From positions 1 through 34,422 of IMG/VR virus record IMGVR_UViG_3300028027_000140: DNA of 34,422 nucleotides. The stretch is one strand, 5' to 3'. The notes beneath the pieces are model-generated. The model was not told the DNA's origin. It did no database searches and saw only the letters and a list, made by a program, of their open reading frames with translations. Shown here in pieces: positions 11,375-34,422 of this stretch (within the stretch, counting starts at the first letter, position 1; each line of letters begins with the position of its first letter). A program made the translations under genes and the position numbers. This stretch comes from a virus.

Positions 11375-11380
11375 ACATCC

Positions 11381-16619: not shown

Positions 16620-17102
16620 TTAAACAACAACAATACCGTCTGAACGAACTAAGAACATCAAGAATATGATGCCATCGTCAGCAGGATTGCCACCACCAGC
16701 AGGGAATGAAATCTTGATGCGACCAGAGAAGCAAGCAGGATTGACAGCATTAATGTCCAACTCAGGGTCACTTGAAATTAAAGACCACACCGAATCGTCA
16801 ATCACCAATGTGAAAGAGCCGTTTGCATCAATACGATTTGAAATAGTCAGGTTAACAGGCGTAGGCGTAGGCTCGTAGTTGCCAATGCTAAAAGACAAAC
16901 CATTTCGCGTGTCTTGCAGATTGCTTACAGTTCTACGGACAATCTGTGCGTTAATTGTTGCACCAGTCAGGTTTACTGGTGAGCCGTTTGAGTTAAAAAC
17001 TAAGTTCCAGTAGGTCGATTGGTTGTAAACCAACTCACCCGTAATCAGAGGATTATCGAATCCGCTGACTTGCGTAATAGTATTCTGGCTAAAAAGTGCC
17101 AT
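16620..17102 (-). CDS. putative tail/baseplate-associated protein, 160 aa
   Basis: 160 residues, beta-rich. ITGELVYNQSTYWNLVFNSN, LTGATINAQIVRRTVSN and FTLVIDDSVWSLI resemble the N-terminal domain of BppU-like or fibre-adaptor proteins that attach receptor-binding parts to the tail. The end IFLMFLVRSDGIVVV is hydrophobic but short. It sits between the tail chaperone and the main fibre. The assignment is by position and fold pattern only. Confidence 0.5.
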   Translation of the reverse strand: MALFSQNTITQVSGFDNPLITGELVYNQSTYWNLVFNSNGSPVNLTGATINAQIVRRTVSNLQDTRNGLSFSIGNYEPTPTPVNLTISNRIDANGSFTLVIDDSVWSLISSDPELDINAVNPACFSGRIKISFPAGGGNPADDGIIFLMFLVRSDGIVVV

Positions 17103-17191
17103 GATGATTTCCTGTACTCAGGTTATTGACGCTCCCTGCGTACTCGCGGGGGACGAAATCTTGTCATGTCTTGCGGCAATTATGCCCCAAA

Positions 17192-17602
17192 TCAAGTCGG
17201 AGGTGTTGGCCAAATTACATTGAACGGATAGCCAGACTGAGCAGGAATGTCCCTCAGTTCTTGCCTATAAGTCGCCCAGGCACTTTGTTGCGCAGTAGTC
17301 AACGGACCATTTGGAATTTGTGTCCAGTCGCTTGCGTATAGTAATTTTTGCCGTTTTAAAGTTACATCCGACACCGCCATTGTTTGATTTTGAACCCATT
17401 GCTTAGTCGTAAAATCAAACACCGAATATTGGTCAGGTTGTGCAGGAATAGCCACCGCCACACCATTTGCGATGTAATAGGCTAAATCATCTATAGACCC
17501 CTCAAGATAACTTTCGTCACTTTGTATTTGAGAGTCAATATCTGTTGTCTGAACAACTCGCAAGATTTGTCCAGTAGTCGAGGAATAAATTGTGTAGTTC
17601 AT
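17192..17602 (-). CDS. tail fibre assembly chaperone-like protein (Phage_tail_APC type)
   Basis: 136 residues. The C-terminal half, LKRQKLLYASDWTQIPNGPL, then QQSAWATYRQELRDIPAQSG, then YPFNVIWPTPP, matches the Phage_tail_APC family, which helps fold or attach tail fibres. The N-terminal half is a short beta-domain (YTIYSSTTGQILRVVQTTD). The gene overlaps the tail-tip gene by 4 nt. Confidence 0.8.
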   Translation of the reverse strand: MNYTIYSSTTGQILRVVQTTDIDSQIQSDESYLEGSIDDLAYYIANGVAVAIPAQPDQYSVFDFTTKQWVQNQTMAVSDVTLKRQKLLYASDWTQIPNGPLTTAQQSAWATYRQELRDIPAQSGYPFNVIWPTPPT

Positions 17603-20600: not shown

Positions 20601-21975
20601 ATGCCTCGGAAACCTTAATGACACGGAACAACTTATTAGTCCAGCCGTAGGCAGAATTTGTAACGCTAATCACATCGCCAGCGTCAACCTGAATGCCGTT
20701 ATAAGTCGTAGAGAATGTGACAATCAAATCCTCACGCGCTTGCTCTAACATCCTATTTGCTAGATATTGAGCCTGAACCGAATCATTCACCAGACTTAAG
20801 TCGACTGAATATTTGTTAACAGGCTCGTTTGCAAACAACAAACCAGAAGGCGTATTCAGAAACACATAATCCGACTGGTCACGGTTTAACTTACTAGGAA
20901 ATTGCGCTTGAACCTGATTGATGCTTGAAGCAATATCAAATGCACTAACGCGAATCTCTCCAACAATATTTGAGTCGTCAAACGCAAACGAGGCAGACTC
21001 AGCCTTATTGATAACGATAGACCACTTACCAGTTGCCGCATTGTATTGATTCCAAGAATCGCAAGCCAACATAATCTGATCGAGATTTGCCAATACATTC
21101 TGACCAGTATCCATTACACCGTTAATGCGATACCGAGCCTGAGTAGCACTACCACCACCAGAGGGTGTATAAGTTATCAGTTGGTCAGAATAACTATTCA
21201 ACGCAGTTGCTGTCGTGGCATCCACGATGTTTGTGTCCATCGCACAGCCATACTTTGTGTTTGTAATGTAGTCATACCAAACATCGCCTGGCTTTGCCAC
21301 ACCCGCACCATTAAGATAATGCGAAGCCCTAAATGTCACGGGTTGCATTTGCGTAGTGCCAGCATCCCTGTTGTAAACCATTTTGATAACGGCAAACGCC
21401 AAACCATTCATCTGCCTACCGCTAGATGGCCATCTTTGCCCCACAGCAATGTCAGAGCCACCCATTACAGAACTAGGCAACGCTGTGCCATTCAAAGCCG
21501 TTATAACGCCAGCCTCGTTTGACTTGTAAAGGTTTATGTATAGGTTTCCAGAAATCTTAGTTTGAACATTACCAGCGCCATCGGTCAGACTTATTACTTT
21601 AGTCGGGTCTGAGCCATCAAAACCAATTGCTTGATCTTGCCAGTACATCTTTGTCGTATCAAATGAGAATTGGCCATTAGGACTAATCTGAGAGACAGCC
21701 ATAACGTAATACATTGTCTTTTGGTCAGTCGACAAAACAGCGTCAACAAAGATGCCACCGAGGTACGCATCACCATAAACAATTGGTATGCTATTTGTAG
21801 TAGCAGGAGGCACTTGCTGACGAACGCCATTGTCTACGGCTTGATTAGCACCCGATGACGTAAACACGCGAGTCACAATCATAGAGACCGCAAAGTTAAT
21901 AGCAAACCTTGCCGCAAGCAATGTCATGCCCGTTAATTCAAGCCCCATTGCGGCTAATACGAGTGTCGATGGCAT
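17599..21975 (-). CDS. tail tip attachment protein (gpJ-like) with collagen-linked repeats
   Basis: 1458 residues. The N-terminus has a long hydrophobic segment (about 3-38). Next comes a J-like hub region (NSIPIVYGDAYLGGIFVDAV, GDVWYDYITNTKYGCAMD, NQYNAATGKWSIVINKAE). Residues about 750-1150 are four tandem units of about 100 residues, each with YxWS-P-SG-STYTWA, a GWS segment, W-containing strands and a collagen-like NGTNGTNG linker; a diverged fifth unit follows. The C-terminal part has an AISANLGTITAGSISG segment, as in central fibres of J proteins. It builds the tail tip and carries receptor-facing domains. Confidence 0.82.
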   Translation of the reverse strand: MPSTLVLAAMGLELTGMTLLAARFAINFAVSMIVTRVFTSSGANQAVDNGVRQQVPPATTNSIPIVYGDAYLGGIFVDAVLSTDQKTMYYVMAVSQISPNGQFSFDTTKMYWQDQAIGFDGSDPTKVISLTDGAGNVQTKISGNLYINLYKSNEAGVITALNGTALPSSVMGGSDIAVGQRWPSSGRQMNGLAFAVIKMVYNRDAGTTQMQPVTFRASHYLNGAGVAKPGDVWYDYITNTKYGCAMDTNIVDATTATALNSYSDQLITYTPSGGGSATQARYRINGVMDTGQNVLANLDQIMLACDSWNQYNAATGKWSIVINKAESASFAFDDSNIVGEIRVSAFDIASSINQVQAQFPSKLNRDQSDYVFLNTPSGLLFANEPVNKYSVDLSLVNDSVQAQYLANRMLEQAREDLIVTFSTTYNGIQVDAGDVISVTNSAYGWTNKLFRVIKVSEASLPDGNLGAALELNEYNSQVYDDASITAYSPAPNSNLSNPNFFSNLTAPTVTNINPTATIPHFDVLCGIPATGRVTEVTLFYTNVSSPTTADWKTWGAQTASNSQPFVPSTSLAFTDLNLPTDTYYFSFKVANESGASALSAISTGFSWSPNPTTSAVAGTFLATFSPIVMQVPRNSSLVPSFTGLITQLYGSAAGGAIDFVPSQNDSDAAFTNNTWRIGASSTTGYGDITTSGGLSVPSPTDGGTFAEWGIPTAMSSSPANLIVPVRYKSALGTVSQAATANLQFVFVDQGATGTPGTNGNQSADVALYQWSTVTPSNPSGQSTYTWATATNSAYTGGGGWSTTIPSNPGTAGLQLWTAIIPTVVTVGTATSTVIWTTGYTISSLTTNGANGSNGTNGTNGANGLQTARPTVYKWAITIPAGPVGTSTYTWASNSFTPDPSGWSQTITSAPSAGYTLWAATVNISDTATATTTSINWGLAGIVASGYAGTNGANGTNGTNGTNGTRTAILEMYQWAASAPTTFPSGSSTYTWATGQFTAPAATNGWSLTPPASVLGQTLWICRTIYADSNTTATTSITWSATAAYAAGASGTNGATGSPGANGANGTRTALLEVYRWSATTPTSFPSGTSTYTWANGSFTAPSTANGWSLLPGASSAGFTLYGCQVAYADDLTTATSTVTWSTSTAYAVGAAGANGANGTNGTNGSNGANGIDGLSSRICYAKSTSTSLNSTPATYTTTGVGAFPPTNTWGGSEVWQATPPSIVAGEALFQSDGIFNPATTQTVWNVPYLSNLKVGSLSAISANLGTITAGSISGTSLTVGSAPAVSGTSMSGSGAVINTNGTFAIGNSTTNISFNNTQMTLNGNVVATANINANAVTLTASAFTGAVFRPSTQGTWVDAQTITIVANGSQIYIASSGSPLNGSAIDGENIATIIPEFRLVRGSTVLMNGGRNPAMSYSDLPTAATYTYRLQVYSEPYSMPLELAGISNRSLFAIETKR
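18480..19740 (-). repeat. 300-nt tandem repeats with collagen-like linkers in the tail-tip gene
   Basis: Collagen-like Gly-X-Y blocks recur at about 18480-18540, 18780-18840, 19080-19140, 19380-19440 and 19680-19740, a steady 300-nt period. Between them lie related beta-domains. Period and order suggest growth by in-frame duplication. Confidence 0.75.
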
Positions 21976-21978
21976 TTT

Positions 21979-22425
21979 TTAGTCCCTAAAGAAAGTCGCT
22001 TCGAGAGGCGTGTAACCTCTCTTTGTGTAATCTATCAAAGGCGAGTTTGCCATAACCGTAGTACAAACAAAATCGACCCGCTTATTGTTTAACATTTCTT
22101 GCGCAAGTTCGTCAAACTTTATCCACAGTCTGCCGCCTATTGACTTGCCCCGATGCTTTGGCATCACCCACCAAGCCAATTCGCGCAGTTCCAAAATCTT
22201 TGGACTCCAGACATTTTGTGTAACGATAGCCGCAATCATTCCCCTATGGTCATCGTCAATCAAAATAAACCCCCGACCACTTAACATTTGAAAAATCAAA
22301 TGCCCTACATGATCAGCGTCATGCGTTTCTGGATTGGATAAAACAGGGATAGGCGCTTCTTTTGCATATTCCCGCATCATCCACACCAAAACTGGAATAT
22401 CGTGTCTTGTAGCCTGTCTTATCAT
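21979..22425 (-). CDS. GNAT-family acetyltransferase in the tail module
   Basis: 148 residues. The order of elements fits GNAT: MIRQATRHDIPVLVWMMREY (strand, helix), GRGFILIDDDHRGMIAAIVT, then LRELAWWVMPKHRGKSIGGR with the acetyl-CoA pyrophosphate loop (Q/R-x-x-G-x-G/A type, here HRGKSIGG), then TKRGYTPLEATFFRD. It lies between two tail-tip genes, with gaps of a few nt. The target is unknown; it could modify a tail protein or a host protein. Confidence 0.82.
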   Translation of the reverse strand: MIRQATRHDIPVLVWMMREYAKEAPIPVLSNPETHDADHVGHLIFQMLSGRGFILIDDDHRGMIAAIVTQNVWSPKILELRELAWWVMPKHRGKSIGGRLWIKFDELAQEMLNNKRVDFVCTTVMANSPLIDYTKRGYTPLEATFFRD

Positions 22426-22427
22426 GT

Positions 22428-23072
22428 TTACATACCATCGCTAGCGTAACCAGAATCAGAGGGTGCATTAGTAGCCGACTGACTACCCTGAACAGGAGGC
22501 GCACCAAAATCAAAATAAGTTGAGGCAATTACAGGCACTCTGTCCATGCTTGTATCGTTAGGATAAAAGTTTTTCCATACCGATGGATTTGTTTTTAATC
22601 CGCTAATTCGGTTTTGCAGGATAGTCCTAAACGATGAACAACTAATAGAGCATGTCGCCACCCGACTCCGCATTTGCTCGTTCCAATCCTCCGTCACCGA
22701 GAAGTTGCCAACATATCCCTGATAGCGTTTAAAGAACTGCAAACTTGGCGAAGTAATAATTTGGTTGTTTGAGTCAAAGAACCCCCGCCAGACCTCTACC
22801 AAAGAACCCTTAATATCCGCACCAAGGATAACGGCCACATTAGCACCGTCAACGCCAGTCAGAGAGATTGTTAAATCACCGCTAGTCGCTTTTGTCTCAC
22901 GCTTAATGTCACCAATACTTAGCAGACTTCCCAAGTTACTGTAAGTAGTTCCACCAACAGTTATTGGAGAAGCGGCATTACAAAAGGTGTAAGTCGCACT
23001 AGCCGTAGTCAGTTTGACAAACTCGCCATAGTTAATCGAAGGGCTTGCGAGAGCCGCAATTGTTGTACTCAT
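22428..23072 (-). CDS. tail tip/hub protein, DUF2163- or gpL-like
   Basis: 214 residues. The block GDIKRETKATSGDLTISLTG, then KGSLVEVWRGFFDSNN, then FFKRYQGYVGNFSV, resembles the N-terminal domain of BR0599/DUF2163 tail proteins, the gpL-position hub component. Two C-terminal motifs (RTILQNRISGLKTN and YPNDTSMDRVPVIASTYFDF) fit a hub with a disordered tail. The start overlaps the previous stop by 4 nt (ATGA). Confidence 0.65.
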   Translation of the reverse strand: MSTTIAALASPSINYGEFVKLTTASATYTFCNAASPITVGGTTYSNLGSLLSIGDIKRETKATSGDLTISLTGVDGANVAVILGADIKGSLVEVWRGFFDSNNQIITSPSLQFFKRYQGYVGNFSVTEDWNEQMRSRVATCSISCSSFRTILQNRISGLKTNPSVWKNFYPNDTSMDRVPVIASTYFDFGAPPVQGSQSATNAPSDSGYASDGM

Positions 23073-23719
23073 CCTATGATGTCCTCACGAAACACGAACG
23101 GAGAATCCCATTGAACAAACGCACCATTCGTCATCGGGTTAAGTGTATATGTAGGGCAGGATTCTGCCAACACATAGAAAGTGCAAGCACTACCAACCGC
23201 AGTCAAAGTTCCGGTGCTAGGCGTACCAATCACAGGGCGATGCAAAGTCACAGAGACAGTCGAAGCAGAACCTCGCAAAACGTTCTCTGTCACTTTGTAA
23301 GGGTACAGACCCAACTGCAAGAAATCACCCGCCTTGAACACGAAATCACTTGACGACACCGATGGCAAATTGCCCACAGTAATTGTCGTAGCGTTAGCCG
23401 CAGGCACAGCGGCCAGAGTCAACGCATTTGCTTGAACAGTTGACAAACTTCCCTGATAAGCAGTAAACCAAGAAAGAGTCGTACTAGCGAACGAGATAGT
23501 CTCAGGCAATTGACGGTCTTTATTGTCAATCGCTTGAATGACATTACGCACTTGCGGATAGTACAAATAATTGTGCGGCTGTACAGTAAACACCCAAGGC
23601 ACAGAAGTGAGATATTGAGCAACACGAACTTGACCCGAACGACTGACTTGCTGTCCCACAGTCCTTCGGTTATTCACCGTCAACGATTGTTGAATATCAA
23701 AAATAGTTTGAAACGACAT
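23069..23719 (-). CDS. distal tail protein, minor tail component after tape measure
   Basis: 216 residues, beta-rich. FTVQPHNYLYYPQVRNVIQA, AAVPAANATTITVGNLPSVS and FKAGDFLQLGLYPYKVTENV resemble tail-tip proteins that follow the tape measure gene in gpM position. It shares a single base with the upstream tape measure stop and overlaps the next gene by 4 nt. The role at the tail tip is inferred from position and composition. Confidence 0.6.
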   Translation of the reverse strand: MSFQTIFDIQQSLTVNNRRTVGQQVSRSGQVRVAQYLTSVPWVFTVQPHNYLYYPQVRNVIQAIDNKDRQLPETISFASTTLSWFTAYQGSLSTVQANALTLAAVPAANATTITVGNLPSVSSSDFVFKAGDFLQLGLYPYKVTENVLRGSASTVSVTLHRPVIGTPSTGTLTAVGSACTFYVLAESCPTYTLNPMTNGAFVQWDSPFVFREDIIG

Positions 23720-25689
23720 TACGTCCTCCCGTAATTTGTAGCGAGGTTTTTCTCACCGTATTTATTAGCCGCCCAAATAGCAGTCGAACTACCCAACAGC
23801 CTGTCCTCGAAAGACTTAGTGTCAATAGCATTGATGTAGTTATTAGTGACATTAGTTGTGCCACCAACACCAGACAAAGCGTGATTAGGAACAATAGTCC
23901 CCGATGTGCGAGGCACGAACAACTCCGGACCTCTTTCACCCACCACGCTAACTTGACCGACCGCAGGACTACCGCCATTGGCATACCCTGGCATCCCCAT
24001 GACAGCGGCTGGCTGTGACATATCGCCACCAAACAACGAAGCCAAAAACCGACTGGCCATTGCTTTCATTTGCATTGCAAGAATGTCTTGAATGATGCTC
24101 TTTGCCAAGTCTTTAAAACTAGCCTTGCCCGTGCGCACGAACTTATCAATAGCAGACTCCATATTGCCCATTAAAGAGTCAAACGCCTTTGCTCCCATCT
24201 CTAATTCCGTAGGCATATCACGCAAGAATCTTTGAGCCTGTTTAGCCATACCGTCTTTGTAAGTCCCATCACGCTGTGCTTTAACCGCCTGATTTTGCGC
24301 ACGCAAATAACGCTCTGTAGCATTAGCCAATTCGTTTTCTTTATCCACTAAATATTTTTTAGTCTCAGCATCCAACAAAGTATTGCGTTGTATCTCTTGC
24401 ACATTCTCCGCACGCTTTTGTTCTGCCAAATACAATTCTTTTACAAGCGCAATATCCTCAGACCTCATGTCTTTAGTTGCTATCTCGATATTTAAAATAT
24501 CCTCTTTAGTCTTTAAAGCCCTTGCGTCACTTTCAATACGCAAAACTGTATCGACAAAAGACTCAGCCTCTTTTTGCGCCCACTCAGTTCGTATTTTGTC
24601 CTCTTTTTGCAATTCTCTACGATAACGCTCTAAGGCTCGCAGTCTTTCCTTTTCTGCCGCCTCTGCTTTTCTCTGACGCTCTTTTTCTCCAGCATCTGTA
24701 ACCGCACGACCAGCACGAGGAGGGGCAGAACTGCTAGGTGTAGAAGCCGATGACGGATTCATCACGCTAGCCTCAAACGCATCTAATGCCGCACGCTCCT
24801 TGATAGTCTTTTTAATATAGGCATCGTTCTCAGCCTGAGCCGTTGCCCAATTTTTATTGATTAAGTTATCAATGTATTTGCCGATTGCATATATCTCACC
24901 AAAAATAGTTTTGACAACATACAAAACATTAGCGGCCACCACGGCAACAGTTTGAAACACAATCTTAAACGCATTGCCAAAATCGTTAGTCTCACCGTTC
25001 AATTCTTTAATGTAATCAGCGAAAGCCTTAAGAGTCGGACCTACTTCCGTAGCAATAACCAGCATTGCATTACGAGCGCTTTGTGCCAGCACATCGTACA
25101 TTTCTGCCGCATTTTTAATTGCTTCCTCTTGTTCTTTAGTGATCTTATTGGCTTCTGCCATAGCCTCACCAAAGCCCACCATGTCCACACCCTTGGCGGC
25201 CTTAGAGAAAACCTCCATCGACTTTGCACCGCGAGTAATAGGGTCTTCGACTGCGGCAATATTTTTGACAAATTTATTGAGCAATTCGTCTTGCGACAGC
25301 GTGCCGAGGTCTTTTAAAGTAACGCCCAACTTTGCCGCAGTCTTTTGCGCTTGCTCAGAACCGCCAGCCGCATCGTCAATAAACTTTGTAAACGCAGACA
25401 GCATCTTGCCAGCGTTATCAGCCTTACCGCCATTGTTAGCCAAAGCGTCAGACAGTTTGAGAACAGTACCAATCGCCACCTCATTGGCTTGCGCTACATC
25501 TGCCAACTCGTCAGCATATCTAACAGCCGCCACAGTAGCCGCCACCAATGCAGTAGCACCAATCTTGCCCGCCTTTTCAGCGGCTTCGCTAAACTGTTCT
25601 AGTTTACGACCAGCCGCTTCTAAGCCTTTACTAAACTCCGCAGAATCTAAGCCTAGAACCACGCCCAGGCGAGCAATCATGTTAGCCAT
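23719..25689 (-). CDS. tail tape measure protein (lambda gpH-like)
   Basis: 656 residues. Helical, Ala-rich N-terminus (LGVVLGLDSAEFSKGLEAAG); a hydrophobic segment near 241-263 (FQTVAVVAANVLYVVKTIFG); long charged coiled coils near 330-450; a gpH-like C-terminal block (GNMESAIDKFVRTGKASFKD) near 500; then a Gly-rich tail with VGERGPELFVPR. The protein sets tail length and enters the host at injection. At the usual rough 0.15 nm per residue the tail would be near 100 nm. It starts 8 nt inside the end of the second chaperone frame. Confidence 0.93.
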   Translation of the reverse strand: MANMIARLGVVLGLDSAEFSKGLEAAGRKLEQFSEAAEKAGKIGATALVAATVAAVRYADELADVAQANEVAIGTVLKLSDALANNGGKADNAGKMLSAFTKFIDDAAGGSEQAQKTAAKLGVTLKDLGTLSQDELLNKFVKNIAAVEDPITRGAKSMEVFSKAAKGVDMVGFGEAMAEANKITKEQEEAIKNAAEMYDVLAQSARNAMLVIATEVGPTLKAFADYIKELNGETNDFGNAFKIVFQTVAVVAANVLYVVKTIFGEIYAIGKYIDNLINKNWATAQAENDAYIKKTIKERAALDAFEASVMNPSSASTPSSSAPPRAGRAVTDAGEKERQRKAEAAEKERLRALERYRRELQKEDKIRTEWAQKEAESFVDTVLRIESDARALKTKEDILNIEIATKDMRSEDIALVKELYLAEQKRAENVQEIQRNTLLDAETKKYLVDKENELANATERYLRAQNQAVKAQRDGTYKDGMAKQAQRFLRDMPTELEMGAKAFDSLMGNMESAIDKFVRTGKASFKDLAKSIIQDILAMQMKAMASRFLASLFGGDMSQPAAVMGMPGYANGGSPAVGQVSVVGERGPELFVPRTSGTIVPNHALSGVGGTTNVTNNYINAIDTKSFEDRLLGSSTAIWAANKYGEKNLATNYGRT

Positions 25690-26035
25690 GTTTTACCTCA
25701 AACTTTGATTTGTCAAACCCCTGAGCCTGAGTCATAAACGCCAACAGGCTGTTGCTTACTGCTTCTTTTTGTATCTCAGGAGGCAACGGAGGATATATGT
25801 AATCATACGCACTTCCGAGGATATTGGCTAACTTATACGCAGGAGAATTTGCCGCCCTCATATAGTTAAAAACTCCATTAGTCAGCGTAGCAATTTGCGT
25901 CAGCAATCCGTAATTGCCAATCAACCCGTCCGCATACATTGTCTGAATGTTAGCCATCGTTACATCATCAAGTTCGGAGATAGTTTCTAAAGTATGCCCG
26001 TTGAAAATCATTGCCGCCACACATTGACTTTTCAA
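25682..26035 (-). CDS. tail assembly chaperone, second frame (T part of a G/GT pair)
   Basis: 117 residues if started at the TTG at 26035, but this is a poor start with no ribosome site. The frame is open back to about 26061 and is in -1 relative to the upstream gene, so it is most likely made only as a fusion of about 281 residues after frameshifting at 26047-26053. The sequence (CVAAMIFNGHTLETISELDD, then NIQTMYADGLIGNYGLLTQI) is helical. In lambda the GT fusion binds the tape measure and tail tube proteins for tail assembly. It overlaps the tape measure start. Confidence 0.8.
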   Translation of the reverse strand: MKSQCVAAMIFNGHTLETISELDDVTMANIQTMYADGLIGNYGLLTQIATLTNGVFNYMRAANSPAYKLANILGSAYDYIYPPLPPEIQKEAVSNSLLAFMTQAQGFDKSKFEVKHG

Positions 26036-26043
26036 CGAGCCGA

Positions 26044-26526
26044 TTAGTTTCCCCGACTTTCCTTATAAGTAGGACTAATAGCCTCGCCAATCTTTTCTAC
26101 GATTTGCATCTGCACCGACATAGGGAATTCGTCCTCAATGTCTTTGTAGGTCAAATCCTCCAGACTAGCCCCCTCCAACTCAGGCACAAGCAATTTAAAG
26201 AACTCCGTAATACGAGCCTCTGTAATAGCCTTATTTTTAGCCGCCTCACGCATCGAGCGACCATCGACCAATATGTCACCTTCAACGAATCTAAACTCCT
26301 CCGTCTGACTACTTTCAAACTGCATCAGGGGTTTAGTCAGTTGCTCATAAATTCTTGCGATTGTCTCGTCATCAGGGTTTGTCACTTTTGCATAAATTGC
26401 ATCGGACTCAGCCAGCAAAGGAATGCGCACCTTAAAAATATGGCCACCAAGTTCGAACGAACGAATCAGCAGGTTTTTTTTATTCGTTTGATATTTCTCA
26501 CCAAACGCTGAACTAAATTTTGTCAT
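26044..26526 (-). CDS. tail assembly chaperone, G-like
   Basis: 160 residues. IRSFELGGHIFKVRIPLLAE, then NPDDETIARIYEQLTKPLMQ, and AITEARITEFFKLLVPE fit the size and place of lambda gpG, the tape-measure chaperone. The last codons CGG GGA AAC TAA hold a slippery heptamer. It lies between the HK97 gp10-like gene and the second chaperone frame, and overlaps its upstream neighbour by 4 nt. Confidence 0.8.
   Translation of the reverse strand: MTKFSSAFGEKYQTNKKNLLIRSFELGGHIFKVRIPLLAESDAIYAKVTNPDDETIARIYEQLTKPLMQFESSQTEEFRFVEGDILVDGRSMREAAKNKAITEARITEFFKLLVPELEGASLEDLTYKDIEDEFPMSVQMQIVEKIGEAISPTYKESRGN
26047..26053 (-). other. programmed -1 frameshift slippery heptamer GGGAAAC
   Basis: On the minus strand, G GGA AAC in the chaperone frame is followed directly by TAA (26044-26046). 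Slipping back one base gives GGG AAA and opens the downstream frame (CTA ATC GGC TCG). Lambda uses GGGAAAG at the matching G/GT place. X-XXY-YYZ form, phase and position all agree. Confidence 0.88.
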
Positions 26527-27089
26527 TTCTGTTTTGCCTTGTATTGAAGTAACCGCCTACCGATAATATCCCCAAGCCGTTTAGCGGTGTCAGCGGCTTG
26601 AGATTCCATTGCTGTACGCAGAAAAGGATGAGCAGAATTATGAGCCGAGCCAAACTCTTGCGCTATAGCCCGTGCATCGCTCTCTATGCCCTTAAAGTTA
26701 TGCGCCCTGTACGCACCCACATGACCATCGCTCTCCATCCCCGAAAGGCGTTTCTTAGCCCTTAATAGACCTTTACCCTCACTCATTTGCGCGAGTTTTT
26801 TACCAGACGCAGTTGTAACCGCACCAATCACGGTGTCCGTAGGCGTAATATATTTTGAGCGTCTATCAGACTTTGTAGGGCGTCTAGCCTCAATCTGTAG
26901 CGACAGCCTCAGTCCGCCAGTATTTACAGGGGCACGAGCCACCGCTTGCGCTAATACAGGCTTCATCGCCTCCCGCACAGCCGGCACTAATACTTTGCCC
27001 GTGGCTTTTTTGTCGCCAATCTCTACTGCCAATTCCTCGAAAGCGGCTAAGACTTCTTTCAAACCTTCAATTTTGAAAGATGCCTTCAT
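26523..27089 (-). CDS. HK97 gp10-like tail completion/neck protein
   Basis: 188 residues. ASFKIEGLKEVLAAFEELAV, KVLVPAVREAMKPVLAQAVA, RAPVNTGGLRLSL, and AQEFGSAHNSAHPFLRTAME are all typical of HK97 gp10 family proteins at the head-tail joint. Family members usually sit before the tail tube gene; here the gene is after it and two small genes. It overlaps the chaperone gene by 4 nt. Confidence 0.85.
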   Translation of the reverse strand: MKASFKIEGLKEVLAAFEELAVEIGDKKATGKVLVPAVREAMKPVLAQAVARAPVNTGGLRLSLQIEARRPTKSDRRSKYITPTDTVIGAVTTASGKKLAQMSEGKGLLRAKKRLSGMESDGHVGAYRAHNFKGIESDARAIAQEFGSAHNSAHPFLRTAMESQAADTAKRLGDIIGRRLLQYKAKQK

Positions 27090-27091
27090 AG

Positions 27092-27316
27092 TTAATTCGC
27101 CTTGATGATTTTGTGAAATATTAGATGATTGACTTGCAACGCATAATCAACAACTTCCTCAGGCGTAAGTTTGTCAGCGTGCTGTTGAGCAATTTGATGC
27201 GCTAGTGTGACCGCAGTCATTCTCTGTTGAGAAAAGCCAAACCAATCCTTGCGAGATTCGGCTTGGCTTACTAGGAAACCCAAAAGGTCGTTGCTATCTT
27301 TTATTGTCGTAGTCAT
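27092..27316 (-). CDS. hypothetical protein, 74 aa
   Basis: 74 residues, helical: LLGFLVSQAESRKDWFGFSQ, then RMTAVTLAHQIAQQHADKLT and VDYALQVNHLIFHKIIK. No membrane segment. It sits between the tail tube and gp10-like genes, only 2-3 nt from its neighbours. No family recognised. Confidence 0.6.
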   Translation of the reverse strand: MTTTIKDSNDLLGFLVSQAESRKDWFGFSQQRMTAVTLAHQIAQQHADKLTPEEVVDYALQVNHLIFHKIIKAN

Positions 27317-27319
27317 ATC

Positions 27320-27517
27320 TTATTTTTCAATTGTTTTTGGCGCCACATAAGGGAAACGTGCCGCTAAAAATTGCAAGACGGTTTCTTCTTCCGTATCAGG
27401 AGTGGTTTTTGCCAGAGCGTCCGCCACTTCCTTTGCATCTAACTCCATGCCCCTGACCATTACGTCAAAGGACATGTAGGTGCTACTCAATATGTCTATC
27501 GCGTCTTTAAGTGACAT
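27320..27517 (-). CDS. hypothetical protein, 65 aa
   Basis: 65 residues, acidic and helical: SLKDAIDILSSTYMSFDVMV, then KEVADALAKTTPDTEEETVL. It follows the tail tube gene after 2 nt. A tail-linked role is likely from position, but no family is recognised. Confidence 0.6.
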   Translation of the reverse strand: MSLKDAIDILSSTYMSFDVMVRGMELDAKEVADALAKTTPDTEEETVLQFLAARFPYVAPKTIEK

Positions 27518-27519
27518 GA

Positions 27520-28014
27520 TTAGGTGCTGGCAGACCAGCCGTATTGATTACCACGGGGGTGAATGGTGAAAGTTACCTTGGCTTCAGCACCAGGCGCTGA
27601 GTCAATATCCCATTGGCTAACGCGACCGTTGAAAGCGTAGTTAACAATGCCAGTTCCGTCAGTAGCAGAAATAACAAAAGTACGGTCAATCGTACCGTTG
27701 TAAGCATCGCCACGCAACAACAACAACACGGTGTCGCTAGGATTCCAAGCGGCTGTGATAGTCATACTAGTCGGGGCAGACTGCACAGGAATCTTGTCCG
27801 ACTGACGCGAGCCAGCAACAGAGAAAGATGCCACAGCATCGTCTTGACCGAACGGAGGAATTGCCTCGACTGGAACTAAGTTGCCAGAAATTGCCAAAGC
27901 AGAAACAGTTGCGTAGGTTGACAAAGCAGAAGTTGTCAAAGCGGTTGGAGTTGCACTAGGCTGTGCATAAAGTGTCGCACTAAAGCCGGGCAAAATTTTG
28001 GTTGGTAAAGCCAT
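27520..28014 (-). CDS. major tail tube protein
   Basis: 164 residues, beta-rich. ALPTKILPGFSATLYAQPSA, SVAGSRQSDKIPVQSAPTSM, NPSDTVLLLLRGDAYNG and KVTFTIHPRGNQYGW fit a gpV-like tail tube monomer. It is at the usual place after the tail terminator and before the chaperones. An AAAGGAAAC ribosome site precedes the ATG, as expected of a highly made protein. Confidence 0.82.
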   Translation of the reverse strand: MALPTKILPGFSATLYAQPSATPTALTTSALSTYATVSALAISGNLVPVEAIPPFGQDDAVASFSVAGSRQSDKIPVQSAPTSMTITAAWNPSDTVLLLLRGDAYNGTIDRTFVISATDGTGIVNYAFNGRVSQWDIDSAPGAEAKVTFTIHPRGNQYGWSAST

Positions 28015-28048
28015 TTGAGTTTCCTTTAAAGAGTTGAAAAATCGTGTC

Positions 28049-28471
28049 TTATGTTGGAATATCTATTGTGCAATCAATAAAGACTTGCGCCAACTTGTTT
28101 TCGTTGTCATAACTGTTGTACAGCCATTGGCAATCCGCTTTTGAGATATAAAACCCACCATTAGCAATATCGCCCAGCACACCGCTATAACCGTGTAGCG
28201 ATTGTAGTACTTGATTCGAAATTGTGAAACCGTCCTCAATCTGCTGAGTAAAAATACTTATCTGAAACACAGGGCGGTCGATACCCTTTACCGACTGATA
28301 CGAACCCGTATAAACCTCTTGATGCACATTCCTCAGCATCCAAGTAATAAACTTTGGCTGTGTTGCAAAATTGCGATTGAAAGCCGCATAAACAGGCACA
28401 GGCGTAACAATCTGTGCCAGTTGATACTGTATCGCCTTGCCGTAGTTAACAACATTTGTCTGAGTCGTCAT
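28049..28471 (-). CDS. tail terminator-like protein
   Basis: 140 residues. NYGKAIQYQLAQIVTPVPVY, FATQPKFITWMLRNVHQEVY and RPVFQISIFTQQ, then YNSYDNENKLAQVFIDCTID, fit the size and order of tail terminator (gpU, DUF3168-like) proteins. It overlaps the head-closure gene by 4 nt. Assignment rests mainly on place and size. Confidence 0.65.
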   Translation of the reverse strand: MTTQTNVVNYGKAIQYQLAQIVTPVPVYAAFNRNFATQPKFITWMLRNVHQEVYTGSYQSVKGIDRPVFQISIFTQQIEDGFTISNQVLQSLHGYSGVLGDIANGGFYISKADCQWLYNSYDNENKLAQVFIDCTIDIPT

Positions 28472-28812
28472 ACAGCCACCACAGGGTCGTTACGAACGCA
28501 CAAAAATCTAACAGTCATTCTGTCATCCGATTCGCGCACACTATCCACACGCCAGTCAAAGTTTTTCCACCTAATTGAATACGCATTTTGATTGTCAATA
28601 ATCAATTTTGTGTTTGGCGTGTAATTTAGGGTCAACTCCACAATGTCCGAGTAAACGCGATACTTATCAGCGATACGGACACTATTTGCAACAGAACGAA
28701 CACGAGCGCGAGTATCAAACCACTTCGTTATCGTAGTCGATTGTTCACCAAACGAACTACTGCCGAAAGTCAGTTGATTGACCGTGATATTTTCGAACCG
28801 TGCGATACCCAT
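28468..28812 (-). CDS. head-tail joining (head closure) protein
   Basis: 114 residues. TITKWFDTRARVRSVANSV and DKYRVYSDIVELTLNYTPNT, then YSIRWKNFDWRVDSVRESDD, match the beta-barrel pattern of Phage_H_T_join (SPP1 gp16-like) proteins, which seal the portal after packaging. It abuts the connector gene and overlaps the terminator gene by 4 nt. Confidence 0.78.
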   Translation of the reverse strand: MGIARFENITVNQLTFGSSSFGEQSTTITKWFDTRARVRSVANSVRIADKYRVYSDIVELTLNYTPNTKLIIDNQNAYSIRWKNFDWRVDSVRESDDRMTVRFLCVRNDPVVAV

Positions 28813-29481
28813 TTACATCACCAAAGGTTTGTAAGGACGAAGCAATGTTGCCACACCAAACGGGATTTCGCGCAACAAAGCGTCCGATGTATTAGACCGG
28901 TTGTTATAGATGTGAGTCAACAACATTAAACCCGCTTGCTTAATTACAGGGTATGTAGCCAAGAACGCAGAGTTCTGGGTGTACGTCACCATAATCGGAT
29001 TTGCCACCTCTTGATTGAGCGTGTTTGGGATAGTGTTAAGAATCACACGATTGCCCGTAGGGTCGTATGAATAGTTTGCAGGGTCAATCACTACAGGCGT
29101 GACATTAGAAGTCGAATAGAACGCAACCTCGTTAATCACAATGCTTGCAGTCTGCCCAGTTTGATTCGGATACTGCACCTCGGGCAAATCCAAAAACACC
29201 GAAGTGTTATACAGACCAAAGTTTGGATAGTAGATTTTCCAAGTCGTAGGCAGAATAGCCGCGCCAAGATAATCCTCTATGGCCATACGAGTCGCCAACT
29301 CCAGCGACTGCACATAGGTGTCCTGACTTTCATCATCGAACAAGTTTAATTGATTCGTGATTTCGTCCAGCGTCAACCAATGCGTAGAAACATCCCGCGC
29401 AACCTGCTCAATTTTGGCGTAGTTGTACGGATTCCTTTGATTGGAATAAAAAGGCGCGAGTGTTTGATTCTCAACTGCCAT
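28813..29481 (-). CDS. head-tail connector, phiE125 gp8 family
   Basis: 222 residues. The N-terminal third contains THWLTLDEITNQLNLFDD and LELATRMAIEDYLGAAILPT, typical of gp6/phiE125 gp8 adaptors; the middle is beta-rich (VFLDLPEVQYPNQTGQTASI). The C-terminal helix (VIKQAGLMLLTHIYNNRSNT) completes the pattern. It would form the ring beneath the portal. Confidence 0.85.
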   Translation of the reverse strand: MAVENQTLAPFYSNQRNPYNYAKIEQVARDVSTHWLTLDEITNQLNLFDDESQDTYVQSLELATRMAIEDYLGAAILPTTWKIYYPNFGLYNTSVFLDLPEVQYPNQTGQTASIVINEVAFYSTSNVTPVVIDPANYSYDPTGNRVILNTIPNTLNQEVANPIMVTYTQNSAFLATYPVIKQAGLMLLTHIYNNRSNTSDALLREIPFGVATLLRPYKPLVM

Positions 29482-29491
29482 TTATAACCCC

Positions 29492-30508
29492 TTAGGTTGC
29501 TGTAGAACGAACGCCAGCGAACGGGTCGAGGACAGTACTAGCCAAGCGTTTCTCTGCGTACAGAGTCACAAAGCCTGGGGCTGTTTGCTCAAAAACTTGA
29601 ACGGTAAATTCCTCAACGTCAGCAATCGTCATGAATCGTTCCCAGTTTGCCAAGTAAACGGGATTAGTCGCTGGCAAATACGGGTTAACAATCACAGGGA
29701 AACCAAACACGTGTGTCAACGCACCAGCATTGTCTGCACCATTTTCAACAAACGCATAACTAGCCTGATTAGTACCGCCATGAACATAGTCACGCAATTC
29801 TTGAATAGCCGCAGGTGTCATCATCCAAGCCGCACCGTCCCAATATTGACCAGGCAATGCACTAGCCATAGCCGACAAAGTTTCATGGTCCAAATCGCCA
29901 GTTGTGAAGTTGACGTTAGCGATTGTGTGAATACCATTAGTAATAGCCGTACCGCTAGTGCCGAAAGCCGCAGAGCCGCTAGCGTACACACCCAGACCAC
30001 GCAAACCATAAGTGCCACCAGTAGTCGTAGTAGTCGAGCCAGACTGGTCGTTGTTTGCACCCATAGAAGCCGCCTCTTGCTGGCTAAACTCCAACGCAAG
30101 GTCTTTCATCACAGCATCTTGCAATCCGTTAATGTCGTCCAAAGCGGCAATACGAATGGGCAACTGAGCGTTAATGATTCGCGTAGGCATCACCCAATAC
30201 GAGGTCGCAGTATTAGGCGAGCCAGTATCAGGCGTAGCGTTAGGATTCCAAGGATTCGCACCAGTCGAATTACCAGTCTTGGCCACAAACTGCACAGCCG
30301 AAGAATTAGGCGTCTTGATATTACGAGCCACCTTGCGGAACGGGTTTGCATAACGCAACGCAGTAAAAGCATCATCGAAATAAGTACGGCCACCAATGCC
30401 ATCGCCAGAGCCTGTAAGAGTTGACGCCTCGCGGAGGTCAATCGTAACTTTGCCGCCTTCATTCAAGGCTTGCTTAATACCGTCTAGGATTTTTTGGTTT
30501 GCACTCAT
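29492..30508 (-). CDS. second major capsid protein paralogue, without delta domain
   Basis: 338 residues. From residue 28 it is collinear with the upstream capsid protein: EASTLTGSGDGIGGRT, IRIAALDDINGL, EFSQQEAASMGANNDQSGST, GLRGLGVY, and EQTAPGFVTLYAEKRLASTV. It lacks the N-terminal scaffold-like region (about 80 residues) of the first copy; instead it begins with a short helix. It is a full HK97-fold capsid domain, so it should assemble. It might form pentons or a minor capsid subunit. An AAGGAA ribosome site precedes the ATG. Confidence 0.9.
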   Translation of the reverse strand: MSANQKILDGIKQALNEGGKVTIDLREASTLTGSGDGIGGRTYFDDAFTALRYANPFRKVARNIKTPNSSAVQFVAKTGNSTGANPWNPNATPDTGSPNTATSYWVMPTRIINAQLPIRIAALDDINGLQDAVMKDLALEFSQQEAASMGANNDQSGSTTTTTGGTYGLRGLGVYASGSAAFGTSGTAITNGIHTIANVNFTTGDLDHETLSAMASALPGQYWDGAAWMMTPAAIQELRDYVHGGTNQASYAFVENGADNAGALTHVFGFPVIVNPYLPATNPVYLANWERFMTIADVEEFTVQVFEQTAPGFVTLYAEKRLASTVLDPFAGVRSTAT

Positions 30509-30536
30509 TTTGATAATTCCTTAAAGATTAAAAGAC

Positions 30537-30554
30537 GGGGAGCCGAAGCCCCCC
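30537..30554 (-). terminator. UUCG hairpin between the capsid genes
   Basis: Minus strand: GGGGGGC, loop TTCG, GCTCCCC, a 7-bp stem with one G-U pair, followed by GTCTTTTAATC. The tetraloop and stem are strong and the U-tract imperfect, so partial termination or RNA stabilisation is likely. It begins 16 nt after the stop of the first capsid gene. Confidence 0.75.
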
Positions 30555-30569
30555 ATCATTTTTTTGCTA

Positions 30570-31913
30570 TTAAGCGCCTGTCGCTGTAGAGCGATAACGG
30601 ATGATAGCGTTGGGATCGACCACACTTGAGCAAAGGCGTTTTTCGCCAAAGAATGTGATAAATCCTGGGGCTGTCTGTTCGTAGCGACGCAGAGTCATGC
30701 TCAAGCGGTCCACGATTGTATGACCACGAGAGAAATCACCGAAGTACATTGGGAACAACGAAGTTGTACCAGCAGAACCACCAGCAGATGTAGGTGCAGA
30801 GCAGTACGAGTTAACGTACACATCAAAGCCCAACAACTTACCAACGATACCGTCATACACCAGAGGAGACATACGCTCGAACACAGGAGTGCCGTTGTTA
30901 TCTACCAAGCCACGGATGCCAGCAAGCATGATGGGGTTGATAACGAAGCAGTTACTTGCAGACCAATATTGCTGTGGCAAATTGTGAATGAATTGAATGA
31001 TGTCAATGTACTTCACGTTATTTGCAGAAGCAAAACCATTTGTAGTGGTTTGGTCATAAGTAGCAATACTGTGCAAACCGTCAGTAGAAGCAGTACCGCT
31101 TGAACCGAAAGCCGCGGCAGAGATAGTGCCACCGGTGTAAGTAGAGTTAGAGCCTGGGTAAGAATTCAAACCACGCAAGCCCGATGTACCACCGTATGCA
31201 GTAGTCGTAGAACCTGACTGGTCGTTATTCAAAATCATCGACAAGCCTTCTTGCTGACTGAATTCTTGCAACATGTCGTCAACGACATTTGCCTCCAAGC
31301 CATCAATGTCGTCCAAAGCCGCAGTACGGATTGGGAACTGAACGTTAATGTCTTGCAAATTCAATTGCCAGATGCTGGTTGCTTCAGTAGTAGCAGAACC
31401 GTTGTTTTGAATTGCATAGCCCCAAGCCGCGCCAGCGTTGCCCGTTTTTGCACGGAACTGGTATGTAGAACCATCTGTAGCCACATTACGTGACACACCG
31501 CGCATTGGGTTAAGCAAACGCAGTTTGTGGAACACGGGGTCATAAGCAGTACGGCCACCAATACCAGCGCCAGAACCGGTGAGGGTCGAGGCTTCAGTCA
31601 GGTAAGCAGAGTGCTGATCGTCAGACTCCCACAGTTTTAACTCTGTGTGAACGCGATTGCTACCCTTAGCGAAAGAAGCGAGTTGCTCCTTAACACGACG
31701 ATTAACATCACCGCGAACTGTCTTAGCAGGGGCTTTGATGAACTCAGGGATTTGAATTGCAGATACTTTGGCTTCCAAAGCCGCGAACTTGTCATTCAAT
31801 TCGGCTTTTGCAGATTCCACAGTAGTTGCGACTTCGCTTTTTACAGCGTCAATTTTGGCTTCGTTAGACACAGCAATAGCGTCAACTTTTTCCAGTACTT
31901 TATCCATAGACAT
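30570..31913 (-). CDS. major capsid protein, HK97 fold with N-terminal delta domain
   Basis: 447 residues. Residues 1 to about 105 are a helical, coiled-coil scaffold (VLEKVDAIAVSNEAKIDAVK, then FAALEAKVSAI), the usual HK97 delta domain cut by the prohead protease. The capsid domain follows: TEASTLTGSGAGIGGRT, FPIRTAALDDIDGL, EFSQQEGLSMILNNDQSGST, GLRGLNSY, and YEQTAPGFITFFGEKRLCSS. AGGAAA precedes the ATG at 31913. A second, shorter copy follows directly. Confidence 0.95.
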   Translation of the reverse strand: MSMDKVLEKVDAIAVSNEAKIDAVKSEVATTVESAKAELNDKFAALEAKVSAIQIPEFIKAPAKTVRGDVNRRVKEQLASFAKGSNRVHTELKLWESDDQHSAYLTEASTLTGSGAGIGGRTAYDPVFHKLRLLNPMRGVSRNVATDGSTYQFRAKTGNAGAAWGYAIQNNGSATTEATSIWQLNLQDINVQFPIRTAALDDIDGLEANVVDDMLQEFSQQEGLSMILNNDQSGSTTTAYGGTSGLRGLNSYPGSNSTYTGGTISAAAFGSSGTASTDGLHSIATYDQTTTNGFASANNVKYIDIIQFIHNLPQQYWSASNCFVINPIMLAGIRGLVDNNGTPVFERMSPLVYDGIVGKLLGFDVYVNSYCSAPTSAGGSAGTTSLFPMYFGDFSRGHTIVDRLSMTLRRYEQTAPGFITFFGEKRLCSSVVDPNAIIRYRSTATGA

Positions 31914-31924
31914 GATGTTTTCCT

Positions 31925-32722
31925 TTAAATGCGTTTTTCAAGTGCCTTTGCCAACTCACGCGCTTCGAATGCGGCAAGTAGTGCATCGGCTTCGTTTACC
32001 ACCGCCTCAGACTCACTCTGATTTGGTAGAGACTCAAGTGGCTTTTGAACTGCCTCACGCTGTTCTAATGCGCTCTTGAATACCAAAGATGCGGTGGTCG
32101 CATCCTTACGAGTAAGACCCGCCTCACGCAGAGCCTTTTCGACTGTACGAATGTTCATTACACCCTCAGGCGAGAACATTTCTAATTTGTTAATTTCAGC
32201 ATTAGGGTTGTTTGGGTACATCACGACAGACACCTCACGCAAACCGCCCTTTGTAATCTGAAAATATGATTCTTCATCATCATCGTCACCGCTAACCATC
32301 GGCACGCCCTCAGCATTAACCCAGCGAGCCTCCTCAGCATACGCGCCAACAGACACACCGCCAAACATCTTAGGCGATTCTTTTAGGATTTGATAGAGGT
32401 CATTGCCGCCCACAGTATTTGTGTACAAACGGCCTTTTGCAGTCATGCCCGTATCATCGAACTCAAAAGAGTTCCACTCACCCATCGGCATACCGAGGTC
32501 ATTGTGATTGAGAAACATTGGCAAAGGTTTGTCGCCAGAATTGAACTCTTTAGCCCAATCCATAAAACCTTCAGGTTGATAATTGAACTTTCGTCCGTCA
32601 GCGCCTTCCCTAGCGCCCCAAGTTGTTACTCGGGCTTCCATCATTCCCGATGGATTCTGTGCTTCGTTTGCGCCAGTCGCCAGTTGGACTTGCGCTTCGC
32701 AAATTAGCGTCAAATTCTTCAT
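31925..32722 (-). CDS. HK97-type prohead protease (S78)
   Basis: 265 residues. RVTTWGAREGADGRKFNYQP, LPMFLNHNDLGMPMGEWNSF (with the conserved H of the catalytic site), KMFGGVSVGAYAEEARW (with the catalytic Ser), then GLREVSVVMYPNNPNAEI, give the order of the prohead protease fold. The C-terminal third is helical. It would cleave the delta domain of the capsid. A GGGGTG site precedes the ATG. Confidence 0.9.
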   Translation of the reverse strand: MKNLTLICEAQVQLATGANEAQNPSGMMEARVTTWGAREGADGRKFNYQPEGFMDWAKEFNSGDKPLPMFLNHNDLGMPMGEWNSFEFDDTGMTAKGRLYTNTVGGNDLYQILKESPKMFGGVSVGAYAEEARWVNAEGVPMVSGDDDDEESYFQITKGGLREVSVVMYPNNPNAEINKLEMFSPEGVMNIRTVEKALREAGLTRKDATTASLVFKSALEQREAVQKPLESLPNQSESEAVVNEADALLAAFEARELAKALEKRI

Positions 32723-32855
32723 TTATCACCCCATTGTGGATAGATTGATTATCGTCTCTTATCTTGTGGGGCTTCTCTCTTGCCGCGAGTGTAACACTAC
32801 TCCGCTTAATTTGTGAAGCCATTATTGCAAGCATTTTTTCAATCGCTTGCTTCAT
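32610..32855 (-). CDS. possible small gene between portal and protease, 81 aa
   Basis: An ATG at 32855 overlaps the portal TGA by 4 nt, like genuine junctions here, and begins a helical, basic sequence (KQAIEKMLAIMASQIKRSSV). However the frame runs 113 nt into the protease gene, far more than other overlaps, and the end (RSASPTGDWRKRSTES) looks like out-of-frame sequence. Only the first 45 residues occupy otherwise empty DNA. Weakly supported. Confidence 0.35.
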   Translation of the reverse strand: MKQAIEKMLAIMASQIKRSSVTLAAREKPHKIRDDNQSIHNGVINEEFDANLRSASPTGDWRKRSTESIGNDGSPSNNLGR

Positions 32856-34246
32856 GTAGTCCCAATATTCATTTTGCGCTTTTGACTACCACCACCACCG
32901 CCCGTGTCCTGCGGTGAAGTGCCTGGCAGAGGCTTATCAGATGAGCCACTAGAAACCAACTCATCGCCACCGTCAATCGTAGCCATGTTCAAATATTCCC
33001 GCGCTTCGTTAGGCGTCATTATGCCCGCTTTCACAGCCGCTGTAACAAAATTCATCTGATCTAGCGGAGCGCCCTTTAAAAAGTCCTTAGTGTCAAAACG
33101 AACACATAAGTTTGGATAACCCTTAAACAGATGCTGTTTTAACTTCTGCTCCAGACTAATAACGGTCGGATACATCACCGTTTTATAAAACTCGTCCAGC
33201 ATCGTCTGAGTATTGTTGTATTTTTGGTCTGCAATACCTAGCATCGCTGGCGGTACACCAAACAGACCACAAATCCGCTTCATCGTTTGCTCTTTTAACT
33301 TAGCCGCATCCGCATCCTGCAAGTTAAGCATTTGCACAGATTCGTAAGTCATACCTTGGTCGAGCAACATACCCTGACCAGCCTTCGAGGGGTCAGTCGC
33401 CCTTCCACCCGTCATTTGATTCCAAGTCTCTTTAATCCGAGCCGCAATTTCTTTGTATTTAGCGTCAGGAATTACTTGATCGGTCTTGAATATGCCCGAT
33501 GGTTTAGCACCATTCTGCATAATGAAGTTCGCATAGATGTCAATGTCCTGATCTAACGCAATCAATTCCGTTGCCAGAATTCCTTTGTTAAAACCAGACG
33601 AACCCTGCCATGCCGCCTCTTTCACGTGCATGACTTGATGAGCAGACAAAGGCGTATCTTTACTAAAACCATACGAGGGCGAACTCAGCACATACGCAGG
33701 ATAGTTACCAGCAGTCAATCGCACAGTAATCAGCGTAGCATCTAAGTTGAACATTTCAATTGGAGTCTGCACAGGGTCTTTTTGGTCTTTTCTCCACCAC
33801 AGCGTAAAAGACTCACCCGCAAGGTCTTGCCACATCATCCATTGATACCAGAATTCGTAGGCACTTTGAAAGTTATTAGGGTTTTGCAACAAAGACAGCA
33901 CTTGCTTTGCCTTCGCCTTATCGCGAGTCCCAACATTAGGGTCGGTCACAGCATCCGTGAATGTCCCGTCATCATTCTTCGACATAATCGAAATGCCGCA
34001 TTGAGACAGCGCCCTAGCCTTAACTCCTACGCACCCCATCACAGTTGAGTTGCGAGTCAGCGCAGACATATCCAACACACGACCAGCAGTCGTAGTGCTA
34101 GAAGTCGTTACATATAAAAGTTGCTGAGAGGGCTGTTGTTTATTCTGCCCCATGATGACTTGGTTGCCCAATTGCAACTGACCAAGCACCGTATTCGACT
34201 CGTTTTGAACGCTCTTTTTTCTACTAAAAACATCCAAAATGCCCAT
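32852..34246 (-). CDS. portal protein, HK97 family
   Basis: 464 residues from the ATG at 34246, which has GGAGA 7 nt upstream; the longer frame would start with TTG at 34258, upstream of that site. TRNSTVMGCVGVKARALSQC, EFWYQWMMWQDLAGESFTLW, and IKETWNQMTGGRATDPSKAG, then GMTYESVQMLNLQDADAAKL and MKRICGLFGVPPAMLGI are the standard portal signatures. The C-terminus is Gly/Ser-rich. The portal is the ring for DNA entry and exit. It directly follows terminase. Confidence 0.95.
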   Translation of the reverse strand: MGILDVFSRKKSVQNESNTVLGQLQLGNQVIMGQNKQQPSQQLLYVTTSSTTTAGRVLDMSALTRNSTVMGCVGVKARALSQCGISIMSKNDDGTFTDAVTDPNVGTRDKAKAKQVLSLLQNPNNFQSAYEFWYQWMMWQDLAGESFTLWWRKDQKDPVQTPIEMFNLDATLITVRLTAGNYPAYVLSSPSYGFSKDTPLSAHQVMHVKEAAWQGSSGFNKGILATELIALDQDIDIYANFIMQNGAKPSGIFKTDQVIPDAKYKEIAARIKETWNQMTGGRATDPSKAGQGMLLDQGMTYESVQMLNLQDADAAKLKEQTMKRICGLFGVPPAMLGIADQKYNNTQTMLDEFYKTVMYPTVISLEQKLKQHLFKGYPNLCVRFDTKDFLKGAPLDQMNFVTAAVKAGIMTPNEAREYLNMATIDGGDELVSSGSSDKPLPGTSPQDTGGGGGSQKRKMNIGTT

Positions 34247-34276
34247 GATTTTCTCCAAAGTTTTACCAATGCTACA

Positions 34277-34422
34277 CTAAAACGTCCTAAATCCAAAACT
34301 ATCCGACACAAACGGATTGTCCAAGGAACAATGAGCCGCAATAATCAGCGAAATAATGCCGTCAACCTTAGCGGCCTTGTCTGCCTCATTTTTACGCACC
34401 TTAATATTGCCGTTTACATCCG
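34277..34422 (-). CDS. terminase large subunit, C-terminal end only
   Basis: Only the last 47 residues are in the window. The sequence RKNEADKAAKVDGIISLIIA, then the tail VSDSFGFRTF, has the ADKxxKVDGI motif at the end of the nuclease domain of Terminase_1 (HK97-like) large subunits. It ends 30 nt before the portal start. The rest lies beyond the right edge. Confidence 0.8.
   Translation of the reverse strand, partial: DVNGNIKVRKNEADKAAKVDGIISLIIAAHCSLDNPFVSDSFGFRTF

Follow-up and report, generated by a model that had tools for sequence, protein, structure and literature searches.

Two HK97-type capsid genes in tandem

The window, a virus record of 34,422 bases, carries on its minus strand a head gene cluster in which the portal, prohead protease, MCP-A, MCP-B and head-tail adaptor genes follow one another leftward (Table 1). 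Past the adaptor lie the genes for the completion, tail terminator, major tail and tape-measure proteins. A gap of 61 bases (30509-30569, minus strand) separates MCP-A from MCP-B and contains a Shine-Dalgarno-like sequence for the second gene, and the adaptor gene starts 10 bases past MCP-B without a terminator between the two.

Table 1. Positions in the window of the head genes and of the features discussed in the text
Feature	Position	Strand	Remarks
Portal protein	32852-34258	minus	PF04860, 1.3e-60
Prohead protease (Peptidase_S78)	31925-32722	minus	PF04586, 7.6e-10; expected to cut the MCP-A scaffold
MCP-A	30570-31913	minus	ORF of 447 aa, transcribed before MCP-B; proposed hexamer subunit
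MCP-A residues 3-52	31758-31907	minus	Long AlphaFold helix, low confidence (48-60); proposed tower, absent from MCP-B
MCP-A residues 66-83	31665-31718	minus	AlphaFold helix; proposed match to the HK97 helix-turn-strand
Intrinsic-terminator-like hairpin	30534-30557	minus	GATGGGGGGC-UUCG-GCUCCCCGUC, then UUUUAAUCUU; between MCP-A and MCP-B
Shine-Dalgarno-like AAGGA of MCP-B	30518-30522		Inside the intergenic region
MCP-B	29492-30508	minus	ORF of 338 aa, apparently without tower; proposed penton subunit
MCP-B residues 3-24	30437-30502	minus	AlphaFold helix 3-17 and strand 20-24; sole scaffold-like segment left
MCP-B axial (A-)domain core, residues 195-290	29639-29926	minus	Discrete alleles recombining between phages
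Head-tail adaptor (gp6-like)	28813-29481	minus	PF05135, 1.1e-05; phrog_442, 1.7e-12

BLASTP aligned the two capsid proteins with 150 of 348 positions identical (43%, 220 bits, E = 7e-73), values at which their likeness reflects homology rather than chance, and the alignment is collinear from L.EASTLTGSG through RSTAT. Both proteins score above the 24.2-bit cut-off of the PF05065 Phage_capsid profile (MCP-A 101.9 bits, 5.4e-29; MCP-B 71.4 bits, 1.1e-19), and both match the phrog_10 major head protein (MCP-A 2.6e-26). An earlier note on this DNA had proposed tandem paralogous HK97-type capsid genes at 29492-31913 that are collinear from STLTGSG to RSTAT; the reading frames, the identity and the Pfam matches bear out the pair, and the BLASTP alignment its collinearity. 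Foldseek matched the predicted models of MCP-A and MCP-B with a probability of 1.00 to 6tb9 and 1ohg, the capsid proteins of RcGTA and HK97. Since the entries matched by the two models are identical, this search was discarded as a means of telling penton from hexamer conformers.

The pair is conserved throughout a family of relatives

The earlier note had proposed a search for other phages with the same pair, and such phages were found both in culture and in every IMG/VR contig with room for the two genes. The cultured Methylophilaceae phage P19250A (KX815270) carries the same tandem pair, in the same order and with a hairpin in between, its MCP-A and MCP-B being 58% and 54% identical to the window proteins. 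Its record labels the first 'gene transfer agent capsid protein' and the second 'hypothetical protein' and does not recognise the pair. A search of 50,697 phage records for either protein at E <= 1e-5 gave P19250A as its only match. Searches of viral contigs provided 36 loci with MCP-B and the best 80 of 597 loci with MCP-A, and further hundreds of loci came from searches with relatives. In the distribution sample of 217 IMG/VR loci, among which some contigs are present twice, both genes occur in the same order wherever the contig has room for them, and at loci with one gene of the pair the contig ends at most 0.3 kb from that gene. Because the sampling was seeded by MCP-A and MCP-B, it may have passed over a distant relative with a single gene. 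The pair was also found on bacterial or archaeal MAG contigs (L222-L226), and five weakly similar outgroup phages (L228-L232) have one MCP each in the stretch examined.

Two candidates were rejected during this survey. A MAG contig that resembled MCP-A without MCP-B (L227, 1-300) continues from within the hairpin as unrelated, bacterial-looking DNA and is most likely a chimeric assembly. The Methylophilales phage Venkman (L221, MT375522), which has been reported in the genus-level cluster of P19250A (PMC8163748), was considered as a second cultured carrier of the pair; its head module (30815-32827) is of quite another type, in which a single MCP is accompanied by a separate scaffold protein. 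At one locus (L207, 5307-5980) the gap between the two genes is about 0.67 kb, compared with the usual 60 bases or so.

A tree of 32 MCP-A, 32 MCP-B and 5 outgroup capsid domains placed all MCP-B sequences on one side of a branch with a support of 100 and all MCP-A sequences on the other; at the root the MCP-A sequences do not resolve as a clade. The topology agrees with one duplication that preceded the diversification of the family. The earlier note had named inactivating changes in the second gene of related phages as evidence that would count against it; none were found. All 199 complete loci have an intact MCP-B, and dN/dS was 0.03-0.27 for MCP-B and 0.02-0.18 for MCP-A. That MCP-B is a decaying or redundant duplicate would be in keeping with its lower conservation, which was observed in 89% of comparisons (mean identity 0.61 versus 0.69 for MCP-A, 138 distinct pairs). 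However, decay or a recent origin is contradicted by the intact genes, the dN/dS values and the age of the duplication, leaving this explanation exceedingly improbable.

A terminator-like hairpin follows MCP-A

No other site on the coding strand of 17000-34422 is as strongly terminator-like as the hairpin between the two genes. Counting a hairpin where the stem has at least 6 pairs, at least 4 of them G-C, and is accompanied by a U-run, such an element follows MCP-A in 118 of 123 unique regions, and in 4 of the remaining 5 the U-run sits within a longer stem. The regions after MCP-B, which served as an internal control, contain a hairpin with a U-run in 12 of 126 cases. With 74 different stem pairs among the relatives, the sequence turns over while the element stays.

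HK97 resembles this family in its capsid fold, in the S78-type protease and portal genes upstream, in a scaffold fused to the MCP, which is a predicted one here, and in an annotated putative terminator directly after the MCP gene gp5, but it employs a single MCP for both hexamers and pentamers. The shared position of the terminators places MCP-A where gp5 stands and MCP-B downstream of a putative attenuator. By this analogy MCP-A is the putative major subunit, and MCP-B is probably made in smaller amounts, with the hairpin presumably lowering its expression. The terminator alone would fit any lower-copy role of MCP-B.

MCP-B has a short N-terminus and seems to lack the scaffold tower

The STLTGSG motif is preceded by about 105 residues in MCP-A and by 28 in MCP-B, and the median distance from the N-terminus to the GG motif is 117 and 37 residues, respectively. 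In the earlier note only MCP-A had a scaffold and MCP-B began almost at the capsid domain. The first part holds in that the long N-terminus belongs to MCP-A alone, and the second in that few residues precede the motif in MCP-B; nevertheless, these residues form a conserved arm (consensus M....IL.GIK.AL.EG..TVDL.EAS.LTGSG) in which a helix-turn-strand is predicted.

Structures were predicted from alignments that left out the P19250A row, and overall pLDDT was 63 for the MCP-A model and 75 for the MCP-B model, the helices of the former being of low to moderate confidence. The long N-terminal helix of MCP-A has a heptad-like spacing of hydrophobic residues (I21, V24, V28, V32, A35, L39, F43, L46, V50, I53). 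Profile alignment matched MCP-B residues 1-20 to MCP-A residues 66-83 with low per-residue confidence; alignment of HK97 to MCP-A failed and to MCP-B was weak, so that HK97 domain borders are approximate. In HK97 Prohead I (PMC10275583) the helix-turn-strand (residues 76-103) lines the inside of every capsomer, and the portal is bound by coiled-coil towers (residues 2-66) that belong to the five hexons around it. By comparison MCP-B seems to keep the helix-turn-strand without the tower, the match between MCP-B, MCP-A and HK97 being of low confidence, and the part missing from MCP-B would correspond to the portal-binding tower. Because the towers of HK97 bind the portal from hexons, a subunit found only in pentons would not need one.

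In several groups of relatives MCP-B carries an extra N-terminal domain of about 95 residues (L108, 5946-6245; L145-L154, L160-L168 and L179-L191). A conserved internal ATG in these long genes would yield the short form, making two products possible. For the L108 clade, the idea that the extra domain is a delta domain was rejected, as its approximately 95 residues match phrog_2859 (function unknown) and not a coiled-coil scaffold.

The axial domain of MCP-B is exchanged between phages

In the HK97 fold the axial domain lines the centre of the capsomer and contacts neighbouring subunits of its own capsomer (compare the gp24-bypass sites). That of MCP-A is about 30 residues longer than that of MCP-B, in three extra stretches. 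Among 60 relatives of the window (1,770 pairs), the axial core of MCP-B occurs as alleles that are about 40% identical between types. The core is less than 60% identical while the rest of the protein is more than 80% identical in 84 of the 1,770 MCP-B pairs, and in 0 MCP-A pairs. The correlation with MCP-A is 0.20 for the MCP-B core and 0.53 for the rest of MCP-B, and core alleles about 40% identical co-occur with MCP-A proteins that are 93-99% identical. The allele of the window is shared with L004, L006 and L060, although L060 and the window have MCP-A proteins of only 82% identity.

Exchange is also visible in the DNA. Over 8 kb, L004 and L041 share approximately 96-100% of their bases, the exception being the MCP-B capsid domain with an identity of about 70%, and the whole of MCP-B has been swapped between phages that are about 98-99% identical elsewhere. 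Drops limited to the MCP-B axial core, or strongest there, were detected for L043 versus L044-L046, for L124/L140 and L139/L142, and for L208/L210. When pairs were picked by their flanking genes rather than by MCP-A, MCP-B was discordant in six (one lineage group) and MCP-A in one (L166/L168). This last pair, within L165-L168, represents the reverse exchange: MCP-A is 82% identical, and MCP-B and the flanks are 93-97% identical. Separately, L043 and L045 differ in a downstream gene (11000-11800), where DNA identity is 68-85% against about 99% elsewhere.

Contacts confined to the capsomer, together with free exchange of the MCP-B core, fit capsomers built of MCP-B alone, in which the axial domain would touch only other MCP-B subunits. 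The main alternative, in which MCP-B co-assembles with MCP-A inside capsomers as mixed hexamers or an irregular tiling that tunes stability or surface, is unlikely. Paralogs of the HK97 fold can form shells of variable composition, as in two-component encapsulins (PMC12407261), and MCP-B keeps the full fold. Furthermore, the penton model predicted that MCP-B would be more conserved than MCP-A at inter-capsomer surfaces, and this prediction failed: divergence of MCP-B relative to MCP-A is 2.0x in the E-loop, 2.4x in the spine, 1.9x in the P strands and 1.3x in the axial core, which gives no pointer to a fixed contact between the two proteins. However, axial domains within a mixed capsomer would touch, yet strongly divergent MCP-B alleles are paired with nearly identical MCP-A proteins and entire MCP-B genes are replaced in otherwise near-identical phages; the terminator also favours unequal amounts of the two subunits.

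An exposed domain that evolves fast and can be exchanged would also suit a protein outside the lattice, either displayed on or decorating the vertex or acting as a decoy for capsid-sensing host defences. This is highly improbable, since the invariant residues of MCP-B are mostly found in three parts of the HK97 fold, namely the N-arm, the E-loop and the spine, for which a decorating protein would have no use. With homomeric MCP-B pentamers, a further and more tentative step would be that the corners are interchangeable caps, that is, pentons whose exposed axial domain is an allelic cassette that recombines under diversifying selection; we consider this possible but doubtful.

A model for a head built from two capsid paralogs

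Taken together, sequence, structural models and analogy lead us to propose that MCP-B forms the pentons and MCP-A the hexamers of an HK97-type head, a reading that we regard as fairly likely. According to the model, two ancient, co-inherited paralogs would build the head, with MCP-A as the major subunit making hexamers. Its N-terminal scaffold, consisting of the coiled-coil tower and the helix-turn-strand, would drive assembly and hold the portal, and would then be removed by the S78 protease. The intrinsic terminator would cause less MCP-B to be made, and MCP-B, with only its helix-turn-strand, would form homomeric pentamers at the non-portal vertices. The HK97 genome of 39.7 kb, packaged in a T=7 head, provides a yardstick: genomes of 34-39 kb lead one to expect a T=7 head, in which there would be 11 x 5 = 55 copies of MCP-B and about 360 of MCP-A. 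Two traits of vertex proteins are found in MCP-B, namely that it is a paralog of the MCP in the same genome and that its N-terminal region is shorter than that of the hexamer protein. The model would place it in the virion, at the 11 non-portal pentamers. The earlier note had left a penton protein, a minor subunit and a capsid-size variant side by side; the terminator, the apparently missing tower and the independently swapping axial domain favour the first two.

The comparison with T4 gp23/gp24 made in the earlier note holds for paralogy and for the shorter N-terminus of the second protein, but not for descent. In T4 the vertex protein gp24 loses 10 N-terminal residues and gp23 loses 65 (PMC9958956); the parallel lies in an MCP paralog that has a far shorter N-terminal region and a proposed role at the vertices. 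However, the scaffold core of T4 is a separate component and its myovirus head is prolate, whereas in this family the putative scaffold is fused to MCP-A; the identity between gp24 and gp23 is about 20%, against 43% for the two proteins of the window. A search of the MCP-B profile against the PDB matched only the RcGTA MCP and 9gyi, and not gp24; with no detectable sequence relation, membership of the gp24 family by descent was rejected.

A direct precedent in an HK97-type shell is Ccm of the Staphylococcus satellite SaPIbov5, a homolog of the HK97-type phi12 CP (24% identical) that occupies pentamer positions only, the CP forming the hexamers, and that has a shorter N-terminal domain (87 versus 128 residues) (PMC8569155). 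Ccm is encoded by a satellite and turns the prolate head of its helper into an isometric one, whereas MCP-B, with about 25-28 residues before the capsid domain, belongs to the phage itself, adjoins MCP-A and is universal; its position inside the head operon of the phage, with MCP-A on one side and the adaptor on the other in every relative examined, led us to reject a Ccm-type satellite homolog. The effect of Ccm on phi12 heads (PMC8569155) nevertheless raises the question of whether MCP-B, likewise a CP homolog with a reduced scaffold, determines size or shape, such that the T number with MCP-B would differ from that with MCP-A alone. This role, which overlaps with the penton model, is improbable: MCP-B is universal and intact and shares its operon with tail genes, and the lengths of the larger contigs are concentrated at 34-39 kb, with no sign of two genome sizes. 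Family 2B two-component encapsulins also combine two co-assembling shell proteins of the HK97 fold (PMC12407261), but these are cellular nanocompartments with irregular mixed tiling and neither portal nor scaffold tower.

In the literature searched, mostly outside subscription journals, we found no description of tandem HK97-type MCPs of this family and no phage-encoded dedicated penton in an HK97-type siphovirus. The idea of a vertex protein is already known; the setting appears new, in that an HK97 head with a presumably fused scaffold is combined with a universal pair, a conserved putative attenuator and swapping axial alleles.

HK97 is the textbook case of one protein, with its scaffold fused, serving for both hexamers and pentamers. 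If the penton model is true, dedicated pentons arose in HK97-type heads too, beside T4 and a satellite, and the conserved terminator suggests how the stoichiometry of MCP-A to MCP-B is set. Such a division of roles between paralogs in a widespread phage group, one with the full scaffold and one almost without it, would provide a natural experiment on the function of the scaffold tower, be it at the portal vertex, in the hexamers or in curvature. Were the corners indeed interchangeable caps, near-identical phages would differ mainly in their capsid corners, with selection exerted, for example, by capsid-sensing defences or for binding to particles or cells. The recombining axial alleles amount to chimeras made by nature, and with P19250A a phage and its host are available in culture for direct tests of these proposals.
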